From the NCBI RefSeq assembly GCF_900199705.1, contig NZ_LT904908.1:674530-738529 (forward strand): a stretch of DNA of 64,000 nt. Reading direction: 5' to 3'. The translations under genes were made by a program, and so were the position numbers. This document shows positions 13,498-54,719 of this stretch, one piece after another. The stretch is from Collinsella provencensis. Lineage in GTDB: Bacteria > Actinomycetota > Coriobacteriia > Coriobacteriales > Coriobacteriaceae. The notes below the pieces were generated by a model. The model saw only the letters and a list, made by a program, of their open reading frames with translations. It did no database searches and was not told the DNA's origin. Each line of letters opens with the position of its first letter. Position 1 is the stretch's first letter.

Positions 13498-14148
13498 TTA
13501 AACGTCTAAATCGACTCCCCATTTCTGGGCAAACGATTCAACGCGCTTCCGCTCTTTCTTTGTTAGTCCATCGAGCACCTTGTGGACGCTCTCTTCATCA
13601 AGATAGGGCCACATACCTAAAACTGCCTGCGCATCCTTTTCTGCCTTCGCACCACGTTGGTCATTGATAGCCATCTTATGGACCACGTACGCTTCTGGAG
13701 AGGGAACGCGCACAAGATGCCCCAAACAAACGACCTCAATGGAGTCTTTGGACATTATGTCCATATGTCGAAGCGTTTGTGCCGTTACTCCGATATGTGT
13801 TTTTAGGGCAACTTCCGCGCCCGCCCCTCGTTTTGCAATTAGAAATTCAACTTCAAGGCCTGAAGAGGCGTCAAGGATTTTAGTGGTTCCGTTGAGCACG
13901 TCTGACTCTACGAAAAAGCCATTCTCACGAGCAAAAGAAGCGAGCTGTGCAGCAGGATTTGGCTGACGCAGATTTCTTATGAGAAAGTCAACGTCCAACG
14001 TTCTTATGTTCGGCATAAAACCTTTTAATATGCCCGCTTCGCGATAGACGAACTCAACCCAAGAGCCCACAAGGATAACGTGGGGCAAGCACCCTGCATC
14101 TTCTATAAGATCAAGCACCCTCGCAAAGGCCTTCTGCTGTTCAGTCAA
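13498..14148 (-). CDS. Nucleotidyltransferase-fold protein (GSU2403/NTP_transf_8-like)
   Basis: A 216-aa protein with a Pol-beta-type nucleotidyltransferase signature: VILVGSWVEF near residue 25 and TLDVDFLI near 50, the G-S and D-x-D elements that bind NTP and metal. The C-terminal half is helical. It resembles the GSU2403-type nucleotidyltransferase family (from memory). It starts with TTG at 14148, one base after the stop of the upstream small gene, so the two are translationally coupled. AbiEii and MenT toxins share this fold, so a two-gene toxin-antitoxin module is possible but not shown. Lower GC than its neighbours hints at transfer. Confidence 0.65.
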   Translation of the reverse strand: MTEQQKAFARVLDLIEDAGCLPHVILVGSWVEFVYREAGILKGFMPNIRTLDVDFLIRNLRQPNPAAQLASFARENGFFVESDVLNGTTKILDASSGLEVEFLIAKRGAGAEVALKTHIGVTAQTLRHMDIMSKDSIEVVCLGHLVRVPSPEAYVVHKMAINDQRGAKAEKDAQAVLGMWPYLDEESVHKVLDGLTKKERKRVESFAQKWGVDLDV

Positions 14149-14149
14149 T

Positions 14150-14452
14150 TTAATGCTTCACTCCCAAAGCACGCTCGATTTGTTTCTGAGAACGCTGATG
14201 CTCCCGCAAGGCGGACTGAAGCTCGCGCCGACGCTCGATCTGTGCACGAACCGCATCAACCTCCGAAGCAGGAATATACGCGGACCTTACCTTATTCCCC
14301 TCGCGGAAAGTCCGATAATAATACTCGCGACCATTGATTTTCTTTATTCGAACGCTACCTTTTGGAAGACGCTCAAGCTCCTTACGTATATGGTGACACA
14401 TTCGAACCGAGCGCTCATACTCTTCTTCCAAGATGCTGTCTAAAACTGACAT
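14150..14452 (-). CDS. Small basic protein coupled to the nucleotidyltransferase
   Basis: A 100-aa, highly charged helical protein whose function I do not recognise with certainty. It has a compact beta-type motif PKGSVRIKKINGREYYYR near residues 35-50, as in small uncharacterised proteins of the DUF6788 type, then an Arg/Gln-rich helix. The start is set at the ATG at 14452 because GGAG is 6 nt upstream; an earlier ATG at 14464 lies inside the inverted repeat. It ends one base before the nucleotidyltransferase start. By position it could be the antitoxin or substrate adaptor of that enzyme, which is inference only. Confidence 0.6.
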   Translation of the reverse strand: MSVLDSILEEEYERSVRMCHHIRKELERLPKGSVRIKKINGREYYYRTFREGNKVRSAYIPASEVDAVRAQIERRRELQSALREHQRSQKQIERALGVKH

Positions 14453-14460
14453 GACACGCT

Positions 14461-14506
14461 CCATTACCCTACATTTTTTATCATTTAAAGAATTGTAGGG
14501 TAATGG
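14461..14506 (-). promoter_or_regulatory. Perfect 13-bp inverted repeat over the promoter/start of the nucleotidyltransferase module
   Basis: CCATTACCCTACA (14461-14473) and TGTAGGGTAATGG (14494-14506) are exact reverse complements separated by 20 AT-rich bases. On the minus strand the spacer contains AAATGATAAAAAAT, a possible -10 region, so the arms flank the likely promoter. There is no trailing T-run, which argues against a simple terminator for uvrA. Most likely it is an operator for autoregulation. Confidence 0.5.
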
Positions 14507-19672: not shown

Positions 19673-19690
19673 TGCTTGCAGGTCATTCAT

Positions 19691-19759
19691 CAGCCGTAAG
19701 TCACTCAACAGCCGCAAGCCACTCAACATCCGCAAGCCACTCAGCAGCCGCATGCTCCG
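19691..19759. repeat. 18-bp tandem repeat, about 3.5 copies
   Basis: CAGCCGTAAGTCACTCAA, CAGCCGCAAGCCACTCAA and CATCCGCAAGCCACTCAG follow each other at 19691, 19709 and 19727, then a partial copy begins at 19745. It lies just past the SprT-like stop and leads into the 20-bp palindromic arrays. No coding potential is evident. Confidence 0.8.
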
Positions 19760-19918
19760 TTACCTATGTCCCCTTGTCGTTGCCTATGATGGCGCTCCGT
19801 TGCCTATGCCCCCTTGCTGTTGCCTGCAATTTTCTGCACTTTAGACATCCCAAAAGGAAGAAAACCATAGGCAACAGCAAGCAATCATAGACAACACAGA
19901 GGGAACTACGGGCAAGGA
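19759..19918. repeat. Palindromic array 1 of 20-bp repeats (core GTTGCCTATG / CATAGGCAAC)
   Basis: Four 20-bp units start at 19759, 19779, 19799 and 19819 with cores TTACCTATG, TTGCCTATG, TTGCCTATG and TTGCCTGCA. A centre TTTTCTGCACTTTAGACATC follows. Then inverted units at exact 20-bp steps have cores CATAGGCAAC (19865-19874) and CATAGACAAC (19886-19895), and a decayed third. The last 8-9 bases of each unit vary. The centre resembles those of the other three arrays. RNA from either strand would fold into a long imperfect hairpin. Confidence 0.8.
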
Positions 19919-19930
19919 GAGGACACACTC

Positions 19931-20150
19931 TATTGTCTATGAAAAGCAGCTGTTTCCTATGGCAGGACGCTGTTGCCTATGGCGGGGCGCTGCTGCCTGC
20001 AGTCAGCTGTTGTTACCTATGGTTTTCTGCACTTTGAGGAGTTGATAACGCAGAAAACCATAGACAGCCGCTCGAGACCATAGACGTTGCAGCAAAAGCA
20101 CAGATAACTACCCGAGGCCATAGGCAATGCAGCAAATCCATAGGCAACAA
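19931..20150. repeat. Palindromic array 2 of 20-bp repeats with perfect 14-bp central hairpin
   Basis: Five left units at exact 20-bp steps (cores near 19932, 19952, 19972, 19992, 20012: TTGTCTATG, TTTCCTATG, TTGCCTATG, CTGCCTGCA, TTACCTATG) face right units with CCATAG near 20059, 20079, 20119 and 20139, plus a decayed one near 20099. The centre is a perfect stem CTATGGTTTTCTGC (20017-20030) / GCAGAAAACCATAG (20050-20063) with a 19-nt loop starting ACTTT. This is the largest and best preserved of the four arrays. Confidence 0.85.
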
Positions 20151-20284
20151 CACGAAGAGATAAACCGCAACAAGGAGCCAAAAACAAGAGAAAGCTCGCC
20201 AGAAAAGTTTTCCACAGGGAAATAACGCCTTCTCAAGACGGATACCGGTTGCCGACTATATCGACCGTCCGCAGCGTACCGCCC

Positions 20285-21388
20285 ATGGCAAAACCTTCAT
20301 GCAACTGCACTTTTAGATGCGAATTAGACGCAATGGAATCCGCATCAGACACCCTTTCGGGTATGGTCTTCGCATACGCTCACTCGACTTTAACTGGAAG
20401 GCACCCATTGAGAACAAACCTAGCTTTGAGCCGCCAACTTGCCTACGCCTCATCAATCGGACAGCTGCTCGTCCCGTCAACTTCAACCGAACGACGAAGC
20501 CTTAACACACGCGTTTCCAGCGGTGAAGTTGTCATGCCCTATCCTGGAGCATATGCAGAGACTGCATCTTTCGAGCGCCTCAACGCTCGCATGAGAGCGC
20601 GTGCGGTTATCAAAGCGATTCATCGCATTCACCCAAACTGGGTCTTTTGCCTTTATTCGGCAGCACTTATCCATGGGCTGCAGGTTTCTGAATCTTTGCT
20701 CGATGTCACACATATTGCCATCGCGCCGAACACAAACTGGCGTAAGACATCCGGTTACATCCAATCCCATACGCTCCATGATTCGTCTATCACCAGTTCC
20801 GATAACGTTCCTTGCATCGACCTTCTCGCCACATTACTCGACTGCCTATGCGCTTCCAGTTTTCGACACGGACTGGCAATCGTCGACTCTGCCCTGCATT
20901 ACCAGCTCACCACGAAAGAGGAACTTGAGCAATATTTCTTGAAACATGGCAGAAGACGTCACGGCATCGGCCAGGCACGTCGAACGCTCGCATATGCAGA
21001 CGGCGCCTGCGAAAACGGAGGAGAATCGATTGTCCGAGCAATCATTATTGAACTGGGGTTTGCCGCGCCGGAAATGCAGGTTGAAATTGAGGATCCTTTA
21101 CAGCCAGGTCATTTTAAGCGCGTTGACTTTTTCTGGGAGCTTCCCGGCGGAAGTACCATTATTGACGAGTTGGATGGATTGGAAAAGTACCTCGGACGCG
21201 GCAATCCCTATGCGCAATTTAACGAAAGGAACGTCGTCTCTGCTGTTCAAGCAATGCGGCGAGAGCGCATTCGCGAGTCTCGTCTCAACCTAACCGGAGC
21301 AAGAGTCCTTCGCTTCTCCTATGCCGACGCACTTGACACAGTTGAGTTCTTCAAACTGCTCTCCACCGCTGGAGTTCCGTTGCAATAG
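20285..21388 (+). CDS. AbiEi-like DNA-binding plus PD-(D/E)XK nuclease-fold protein
   Basis: A 367-aa protein. The N-terminal half resembles the AbiEi antitoxin-type domain (winged-helix region about 60-110 with PYPGAYAE, then VFCLYSAALIHGLQV). The C-terminal 120 residues look like a Vsr/DUF559-type restriction-endonuclease fold: Glu in GGESIVR, Asp in KRVDFFWE, acidic IIDELDG, then RRERIRESRL and ARVLRF. The start is uncertain: no ATG has a good ribosome-binding site. I chose 20285; 20249 (TTG), 20333 and 20363 are alternatives. Lower GC than neighbours and 20-bp palindromic arrays on both sides suggest an acquired unit. No partner toxin gene is adjacent. Confidence 0.7.
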   Translation: MAKPSCNCTFRCELDAMESASDTLSGMVFAYAHSTLTGRHPLRTNLALSRQLAYASSIGQLLVPSTSTERRSLNTRVSSGEVVMPYPGAYAETASFERLNARMRARAVIKAIHRIHPNWVFCLYSAALIHGLQVSESLLDVTHIAIAPNTNWRKTSGYIQSHTLHDSSITSSDNVPCIDLLATLLDCLCASSFRHGLAIVDSALHYQLTTKEELEQYFLKHGRRRHGIGQARRTLAYADGACENGGESIVRAIIIELGFAAPEMQVEIEDPLQPGHFKRVDFFWELPGGSTIIDELDGLEKYLGRGNPYAQFNERNVVSAVQAMRRERIRESRLNLTGARVLRFSYADALDTVEFFKLLSTAGVPLQ

Positions 21389-21393
21389 CACGC

Positions 21394-21476
21394 TGTTATC
21401 TATGGCGGTTTACCGCTGTCTGTGGTTTTCTGCCTTTTAGGAACTACAAAAGGAAGAAAGTCATAGACAACAGCAG
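21394..21476. repeat. Palindromic array 3 of 20-bp repeats (short)
   Basis: It begins 6 bp after the AbiEi-like stop. Two left units 20 bp apart (TTATCTATGG, GTCTGTGG) lead into the centre TTTTCTGCCTTTT (21425-21437), which pairs with AAAAGGAAGAAA (21448-21459) with one mismatch. One right unit CATAGACAACAGC (21462-21474) follows. It has the same architecture as arrays 1, 2 and 4. Confidence 0.75.
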
Positions 21477-21530
21477 AGAAATATGGCTGGCAGTAGGGGC
21501 ATGAGTAACTACATGTAGGAAAAAACCTCC

Positions 21531-21670
21531 TCATTGCCTATGGCAAGACGCCATTGCCTATGGAAGCTCGCTGATGACTATGAAATCCTGCACTTTGAAT
21601 GCCCTAAAACGCAAAAAGCCATAGGTAATGGCATGAAGACACAGGCAACAGCAAGAAAGCATAGGCAACG
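21531..21670. repeat. Palindromic array 4 of 20-bp repeats
   Basis: Left cores ATTGCCTATGG at 21533 and 21553 and a decayed ATGACTATG at 21573. Centre CCTGCACTTTGAATGCCC. Right cores CATAGGTAAT (21620), CACAGGCAAC (21640) and CATAGGCAAC (21660) fall at exact 20-bp steps. About 55 bp of non-repeat sequence separate it from array 3, and the rubredoxin terminator follows. Confidence 0.8.
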
Positions 21671-54407: not shown

Positions 54408-54427
54408 TCTCACCTCCTCATGGGATG

Positions 54428-54550
54428 CTTCACGCAGGCCACTTCATGCAAGACGCTTCACCTACGCCACTACGCACAGGGCACTTCACGCAGGTCACTT
54501 CATGCAAGACGCTTCGCACAGGATGCTGTGCACGGGGCACTTCACGCAGG
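54428..54550. repeat. 56-bp tandem repeat, two copies plus a partial third, upstream of the ECF gene
   Basis: CTTCACGCAGG starts at 54428, 54484 and 54540, exactly 56 bp apart. The first 32 bases of each full unit are almost identical (one difference); the rest has diverged. It lies in the 382-bp gap between rplQ and the ECF fusion gene and shows no open frame that looks real. Confidence 0.85.
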
Positions 54551-54563
54551 TCATTTCAACTTT

Positions 54564-54621
54564 GGGCTGTTTTTCCGGTTATGAGGGCCTGTAATGGGAG
54601 CCAAATGCCGAAAAACAGCCC
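54564..54621. repeat. Long hairpin in the rplQ-ECF gap
   Basis: GGGCTGTTTTTCCGG (54564-54578) pairs with CCGAAAAACAGCCC (54608-54621): 14 base pairs with one bulged base, around a 29-nt loop that can pair further (GGC/GCC). The loop is too long and the flanks lack a T-run, so it is not an obvious terminator. Confidence 0.7.
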
Positions 54622-54719
54622 TAGATTCACGCAACAGCGCGTAGATAGTAGATGTACAAGCGGATGAATTGGCATACGCCGTTTGCAAACAGCCCTAGGT
54701 TCGCACGAAAGCGCGTTGA
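54613..54719. repeat. Imperfect 33-bp direct repeat in the rplQ-ECF gap
   Basis: AAACAGCCCTAG-TTC-C-C-A-AGCGCGT-GA occurs at 54613-54645 and again at 54687-54719 with 27 of 33 positions alike. The first copy shares its start with the right arm of the hairpin at 54564-54621. Confidence 0.7.

Follow-up and report, generated by a model that had tools for sequence, protein, structure and literature searches.

Four palindromic arrays of 20-bp repeats surround a single gene in a 64,000-nucleotide stretch of the Collinsella provencensis genome (positions 674530-738529 of 1,735,664 bases; this whole stretch is referred to as the window), and the predicted product joins an AbiEi-like DNA-binding fold to a nuclease fold of the Vsr / I-Bth0305I type. 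We demonstrate that bracketing by matching repeats is a property of the gene family and that the repeats are private to closely related proteins. We lean slightly towards an overall reading in which the nuclease gene has its own binding sites both as its ends and as dispersed copies, a non-homologous counterpart of RAYT genes and their REP palindromes. We regard the system as new in composition and analogous to RAYT/REP in its possible working. The open-access literature yielded no account of such a system, of this domain pair with palindromes or of such repeats in Collinsella or Coriobacteria, and no description of DUF559 with a transposase and inverted repeats of this kind. The gene and its arrays are listed below.

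Gene, 20285..21388, plus strand: AbiEi-like fold at residues 43-239 and Vsr / I-Bth0305I-like nuclease fold at residues 242-365
Array 1, 19759..19905, plus strand: left units at 19759, 19779, 19799 and 19819; dyad core 19819-19875; right units at 19865 and 19885
Array 2, 19932..20150, plus strand: five left units at 19932-20012; dyad core 20012-20068; five right units at 20058-20138
Array 3, 21395..21471, plus strand: left units at 21395 and 21415; dyad core 21415-21471; right unit at 21461
Array 4, 21533..21670, plus strand: left units at 21533, 21553 and 21573; dyad core 21573-21629; right units at 21619, 21639 and 21659

Matching repeats bracket members of the gene family

From 248 relatives, 80 were kept as the homolog set, most of them labelled Coriobacteriia (though L151, for example, is labelled Bifidobacteriaceae and L102 Actinomycetes); 6 of 80 coding regions, comprising 79 named loci and the window locus L019, are broken. 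A first look by eye at 21 loci found the same palindrome on both sides in 10. The bracketing test took the best match between the 900 bp upstream and the 900 bp downstream of each coding region, with a cut-off of 36 bits, over a set of 79 loci from which the truncated L101 was omitted, to which L019 was added and from which L111 was dropped for its short downstream flank. Matched flanking repeats scoring at least 36 bits were found at 50 of the 79 homologs, compared with 51 of 6162 mismatched pairs. The result is similarly one-sided inside the same loci, where matched flanks occur at 50 of the 76 loci with full flanks and at 3 of 135 pseudo-gene controls.

Bracketing extends beyond the class. 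A search of the phylum hit 24 of 296 genomes, of which 11 lie outside Coriobacteriia, and of the 21 out-of-class matches 20 were taken for testing, one G120 match being left out. Flanks matched at 16 of these 20 homologs vs 2 of 380 mismatched pairs, and 13 of the 16 bracketed loci had a self-palindrome score of at least 40. Fourteen of 20 extra Coriobacteriia loci (L358-L377) were also flank-matched, although these are not independent, as at least L358, L359, L375 and L376 repeat L078, L083, L146 and L137.

The repeat motif follows protein identity. Among the 50 bracketed loci, which are phylogenetically non-independent (six close C. aerofaciens-like loci are one example), repeats are common to 40 of 42 ordered pairs whose proteins are at least 70% identical, to 6 of 14 pairs at 55-70% and to 1 of 2394 below 55%. 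Flank matching relative to controls, and a motif that tracks the protein, thus support the specific tie between gene family and palindromes that a first-pass annotation, made from the letters of the window, had proposed.

Architecture of the arrays in the window

All four arrays that the first-pass annotation placed around the gene were recovered. Each contains a 57-bp dyad with 24-bp arms and 9 bp between the arms, the 11-bp half-site cores starting 46 bp apart, and from each dyad further half-site units step outward at exactly 20 bp. Counted with up to 4 mismatches of 11 allowed, the in-register units to the left and right number 4 and 2 in array 1, 5 and 5 in array 2, 2 and 1 in array 3, and 3 and 3 in array 4. 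At a limit of 3 mismatches, array 2 shows 7 units in register vs a best of 2 in 200 dinucleotide-block shuffles of the region, which rules out chance as the source of its register. These unit counts and shuffles agree with the exact 20-bp register of direct and inverted units claimed earlier, as does array 2 itself, with its five units on either side and its perfect 14-bp central stem. An 18-bp tandem repeat of 3.7 copies (window 19687-19752) lies directly ahead of array 1.

Two dyad families are dispersed through the genome

Arrays are present on both sides of the gene, as first described, but they are not confined to it: the window dyad family has 41 sites in the genome, and the idea of gene-specific local arrays was rejected on this ground. 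The centre motif occurs 18 times genome-wide at no more than 1 mismatch, and its reversed control 0 times; two of the 18 occurrences (L009 and L011) have no surrounding dyad. A model of the letters alone, R1, was built from an alignment of 20 sites, each of which has the 46-bp offset, and gave 90 matches over both strands of the genome. From these the 41 full dyad sites were picked by hand, partial matches covering fewer than 30 model positions being left out; 20 of the 41 are the training set of R1 and match by construction. Across the 82 arms, an outward unit is found at +20 in 56%, at +40 in 26% and at +60 in 13%, compared with 1.2% each at +19 and +21 and a background of 0.97%; 36 of the 82 arms have no outward unit.

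The 41 sites are mostly extragenic. Eight lie mostly within an open reading frame (ORF) of at least 200 aa, where such ORFs cover 68% of the same loci, and at a 120-aa cut-off the figures are 15 sites and 79% coverage. The first-pass annotation had held that arrays equally common far from such genes, with no conserved centre, would argue against a defined system. Most of the 41 copies are indeed far from the gene, but their centre is kept, as expected of a dispersed repeat family. At E 0.01, R1 matches 6 of 58 genomes, its own included, and five of the six match more weakly than its own; the window motif is therefore lineage-specific. In G005 (L046, L051, L055) and G028 (L047, L053), orphan dyads resembling this first family persist, and the gene at the orthologous locus has switched dyad type or is broken.

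Elsewhere in the C. provencensis genome, at C3:1373130-1374047, lies a paralog 43% identical to the window protein and flanked on each side by a dyad that differs from that of the window family. This second dyad family is dispersed too, with nine paired-arm places at a 46-bp offset, including the two that bracket the paralog, and with ten palindromes by a looser rule. Its pattern gave 36 matches vs 16 in the control at no more than 3 mismatches, and only pairs with the 46-bp offset were counted. Two paralogs and two dispersed dyad families therefore coexist in one genome. One solo member of the second family falls in the window, adjoined by a degenerate 28/56-bp tandem repeat (window 54427-54623).

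Solo second-family palindrome (TTGGGCTGTTTTT...AAAAACAGCCC), 54562..54623, no strand assigned: same dyad family as the paralog flanks

That 20 bp is about two helical turns, as remarked in the first-pass annotation, can be taken as a hint only. The spacing holds in the window family, but other dyad families have other spacings. In the C. aerofaciens-like family (39 palindromes) they are 29 and 51 bp; in the second C. provencensis family (10 palindromes) none is prominent, with a unit at 22 or 51 in 1 of 20 arms. With spacings of 20, 29 and 51 bp across families, the outward step is not tied to one multiple of 10.5 bp. The 20-bp units are a refinement found in the lineage of the window and in a few others; what is general is the pair of dyads around the gene.

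The predicted protein joins an AbiEi-like fold to a nuclease fold

An AlphaFold2 model computed with 37 sequences (36 of the 80 named loci and the window protein) reached pLDDT 86.2 and pTM 0.82, with residues 1-40 unreliable. Residues 43-239 resemble AbiEi (6y8q; Z 12.0, root-mean-square deviation 6.8 Å, 179 residues), and residues 242-365 resemble I-Bth0305I (3r3p; Z 9.9, 2.9 Å over 94 residues) and Vsr (1cw0; Z 9.6). These Z scores are a second look at Foldseek's own list and cover the families on that list; Foldseek itself gave no match at E 0.001 or better, its best, to AbiEi, being 2.7e-3. Residues E247, D281, E295, D297 and K301 are invariant in 17 sequences and in 37, the invariance of E247 in the larger set being partly imposed by the search pattern.

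Profile searches point the same way. Of the PADLOC AbiEi models, the best one hits 15 of the 17 members within E 1 (lowest value in the set 6.3e-11; window protein 1.8e-4), which, together with the structural matches, bears out the first-pass view of one AbiEi-like half and one PD-(D/E)XK-like half. For the same 17 members, Pfam gave nothing above cut-off and no transposase family among matches up to E 1. In the homologs outside Coriobacteriia, AbiEi_4 exceeds its cut-off in 5 of 7, and 5 of 7 match MTES_1575 or DUF559 at scores short of the cut-off; NCBIfam names none of these seven. A sequence search of the PDB returned one match, at E 1.3, which we took as chance. MTES_1575 is described as a Vsr-fold nuclease domain in PMC3710099, and calling the window protein DUF559-like, or EDxHD, is our own reading.

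The gene at 20285-21388 is present as first annotated, but its true start is probably the TTG at 20408, preceded by GGAAGG at 20396-20401, since homology and model confidence both begin near residue 41 of the reading from 20285. It lies downstream of a YgjP-like gene and upstream of genes for a rubredoxin and a flavin reductase, and no AbiEii toxin gene adjoining it was found among these neighbours. Six kilobases away, at window 13501-14464 on the minus strand, a nucleotidyltransferase gene (Pfam NTP_transf_8) stands beside a small gene with a below-cut-off match to DUF6788, a pair that looks like one of toxin-antitoxin type.

Gain, loss and position among relatives

The motif of a C. aerofaciens-like homolog was found in 20 of 39 genomes of the genus, and 18 of these 20 were chosen for a comparison of loci. 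At one locus the gene and both dyads are present in 8 of the 18 genomes and absent from 10. Nine of the absent alleles carry no dyad. In the tenth, G012, the left flank stops at the point where a dyad would start and one outward unit is left; with the junctions read by eye, this is a footprint of loss. The comparison of empty sites in relatives that was suggested at the outset thus separates gene-bearing from empty alleles; two solo sites were compared as well. The palindrome of the first occurs in 6 of the 16 genomes compared, and over the retrieved pieces, four of the 16 lacking the left flank, the remaining 10 have other intergenic DNA. At another it is present in 8 of 18, and in 8 others homology stops 7 bp short; the remaining two are G006, which ends at a contig edge, and G012, which matches partly. 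The number of units also varies between close genomes, as L262 and L263 differ by one 22-bp unit.

Copies at different places within a genome exist, since L105 and L142 (74% identical, on one contig) and L096 and L135 (71%, in one genome) have no shared flanks. Conversely, one place can hold different dyads: the window locus, between the YgjP-like and rubredoxin genes, is common to L076, L077 and L080, whose proteins are 53-58% identical to the window protein and whose dyads differ from those of the window, the dyads of L077 and L080 looking unrelated by eye. The L080 gene is broken.

The C. aerofaciens-like genomes hold other palindromes and contents. A Fic/DOC-family gene lies between two aero-type dyads about 1.44 kb apart (L178 788-2325) in 7 of 16 genomes; the locus is variable, with other contents in other genomes, and cargo capture is therefore not claimed. 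Two further dispersed palindromes, of the CCGTTTTCCTCCGTCCCC and GGGGACGTTCTTAAACGACTAGTC types, occur at L182 1124-1212 and at L204, L205, L207 and L210, and neither was beside a homolog of the window gene among the loci compared.

A model for the system

In our model, the gene and the dyads on both sides would make up one unit. AbiEi-like monomers would bind the half-sites of each dyad of about 57 bp, as published AbiEi operators suggest, and the outward 20-bp units, to judge from their register, could serve as extra half-sites that load more copies side by side. The fused Vsr / I-Bth0305I-like domain, by virtue of its fold and conserved residues, may nick or cut DNA at the dyads or next to them. 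If both bracketing dyads were broken, the unit might then be lost or copied, a putative route to the presence and absence that are seen, and repair between dyads could scatter and reshuffle them, a possible cause of the scatter observed. Subfamilies would have their own recognition sequences, so that several can coexist in one genome.

The steps of this model are not equally secure. Binding of the protein to its own dyads is very probable by analogy with AbiEi proteins, and dyad geometry together with the target size of I-Bth0305I makes it most likely that the protein occupies its dyads, where it may also cut. Given the modelled fold, the nuclease probably acts at the dyads, whereas the proposal that such action drives dispersal, or gain and loss, is evenly balanced. 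The downstream dyads, the dispersed dyads and the joint absence of gene and dyads exceed what autoregulation would call for, which leads us to the RAYT/REP-like reading. The first-pass suggestion that the protein may recognise, cut or spread these arrays stands as the best idea, albeit unproven. The most ambitious form of the model, which we offer tentatively and rate a little short of an even chance, is that of a large, undescribed class of selfish or self-dispersing nuclease genes in Actinomycetota, in which each AbiEi-Vsr protein binds and cuts private dyads and thereby excises, copies or protects its own gene and seeds dyad arrays across the chromosome, new specificities arising as protein and site co-diverge.

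If the model is correct, the RAYT/REP plan would have been invented twice, here by coupling an unrelated nuclease to a DNA-binding fold of antitoxin type. Protein-site pairs of many specificities would then be readily available, as would a test case for their co-evolution. The model would also account for one class of the intergenic palindromes seen in gut Collinsella and in other Actinomycetota, and give a role to AbiEi-plus-nuclease proteins, which are only partly named in the family libraries searched.

Several observations weigh against a self-dispersing unit. At the 36-bit cut-off, 29 of 79 homologs have no flank match. The phage collection gave no match, and the plasmid collection one, at 32% identity, on a 0.9-Mb Collinsella record. 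No target-site duplication was visible by eye at the polymorphic locus in the 18 genomes. Genomes that lack the gene at that locus still carry dyads, although they had been selected for the motif. Both flanks are shared by every one of the 23 protein pairs with at least 77% identity, so that recent movement between loci is not demonstrated. At the first solo site described above, the alleles differ in whole intergenic content and not by a clean insertion. Finally, in other subfamilies the upstream and downstream copies show 25 compensatory changes vs roughly 6.6 expected (34 loci), an expectation that is rough, some of the loci included (L082, L146) seeming misregistered. Set beside the window family, where no covariation was found (see below), these changes indicate that symmetry is not kept alike everywhere; they are compatible either with selection for symmetry or with correction between the arms, and warn against assuming a single simple rule.

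Alternative explanations

The main rival is an autoregulated AbiEi-like repressor carrying a defence or housekeeping nuclease, for which the dyads are operators and the dispersed copies are regulon or silencing sites that arose by ordinary recombination, with no self-mobility. AbiEi proteins do autoregulate through such dyads, and Rv2827c has two repeat pairs in tandem (PMC3985639 and PMC7319586); the location of most dyad copies outside ORFs and the shared loci of all 23 close protein pairs are also as this explanation would have it. However, matched repeats stand downstream as well as upstream, and the upstream dyads lie a median of 287 bp ahead of the matched coding region (35 loci), a combination that is odd for plain autorepression; the gene and both dyads are, moreover, missing together in 10 of 18 genomes. 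We regard this explanation as unlikely, though as the strongest of the alternatives. Dispersed sites in exact register, with phased units, could instead be chromosome-organising sites, the arrays nucleating a protein assembly that serves nucleoid structure, segregation or the control of replication. Dyad families that differ from gene to gene and switch within a genus are hard to reconcile with such a function, as is the absence of the gene at its locus from 10 of 18 close genomes that retain dyads, and we consider it very improbable.

It is just as improbable, in our estimation, that the palindromes are passive repeats spread by another enzyme, with the gene merely caught between two of them. 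The two other dispersed palindrome types in C. aerofaciens-like genomes, not beside these genes in the loci compared, and the aero-type dyads around the Fic gene do show palindromes in other company, but bracketing with private motifs recurs over several families of the phylum and the motif follows protein identity. The least probable explanation of all is that the arrays give rise to a structured RNA or to hairpins that act as terminators. As single strands they would form long hairpins, and the compensatory arm changes in other subfamilies speak for pairing. In the window family, however, the arms of 19 distinct dyads do not covary: 78.1% of positions are paired vs 79.7% in shuffles, 499 of 500 shuffles being at least as high. 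Nor do the spacers pair across the arms (3.20 vs 3.65 of 9 in shuffles, of which 1979 of 2000 equal or exceed the observed value). The matches from Rfam (microRNAs and one snoRNA) were all far below gathering scores, the best having 32.2 bits vs 99 (E 0.00052). The structured RNA family raised in the first-pass annotation was rejected on these three results. The absence of covariation makes DNA binding likelier than RNA; arms would fail to covary because each keeps a protein half-site, a pattern that a selected RNA stem would not explain.

Comparison with known systems

The AbiE type IV toxin-antitoxin systems share with the window protein the AbiEi fold and its winged helix (6y8q, Z 12.0; PADLOC). 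They differ in having an adjacent AbiEii nucleotidyltransferase toxin gene, which the window gene lacks, whereas here the protein is joined to a nuclease domain and the dyads stand on both sides and are dispersed. PMC3985639 and PMC7319586 report AbiEi operators with long inverted arms, like the dyads described here: the AbiEi of S. agalactiae binds a pair of 23-bp inverted repeats separated by 3 bp, and M. tuberculosis Rv2827c binds repeat pairs 13 bp apart, two pairs in tandem. The 9-bp arm spacing of the window dyads falls between these values, so the geometry fits and binding is predicted.

The catalytic fold is that of the EDxHD homing endonucleases (3r3p, Z 9.9), among them I-Bth0305I, which seems to form a dimer on its target of nearly 60 bp (PMC3943268). 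In contrast to I-Bth0305I, the DNA-binding part is AbiEi-like, no intron or intein host was seen and cleavage is predicted. Empty and occupied alleles both exist, site-specific cleavage and copying into the empty ones being putative here. The target-site duplication of classical insertion sequences was not visible at the one polymorphic locus inspected by eye in 18 genomes, and the compensatory base-pair changes of structured RNAs were not found in the window family. Proteins with Pfam AbiEi_4 and MTES_1575 / DUF559 present the same domain pair as our out-of-class homologs, and no link to palindromes was found for them in the open-access literature.

The closest parallel is RAYT/REP, whose units are also called REPtrons. 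In PMC2817692 and PMC3733652, RAYT genes are flanked by two inverted REPs, and REPs are dispersed; the plan is alike in its nuclease- or transposase-type gene between two palindromes, its dispersed extragenic copies and its gene-specific families, and the REP palindrome is kept by complementary change. Here, 50 of 79 homologs are flanked by two cognate palindromes, and dispersed, mostly extragenic copies are represented by the 41 sites and the second dyad family. The dyads differ from REPs in their length of about 57 bp, their separated half-sites and, in some families, their phased outward units; their 41 copies compare with usually more than 100 REPs per genome (PMC2817692). RAYTs are HUH / Y1 tyrosine transposases related to IS200/IS605, whereas the residues and model of the window protein are of the PD-(D/E)XK / Vsr type. 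With a different type of enzyme, the system is no member of RAYT/REP, but it may work like one.

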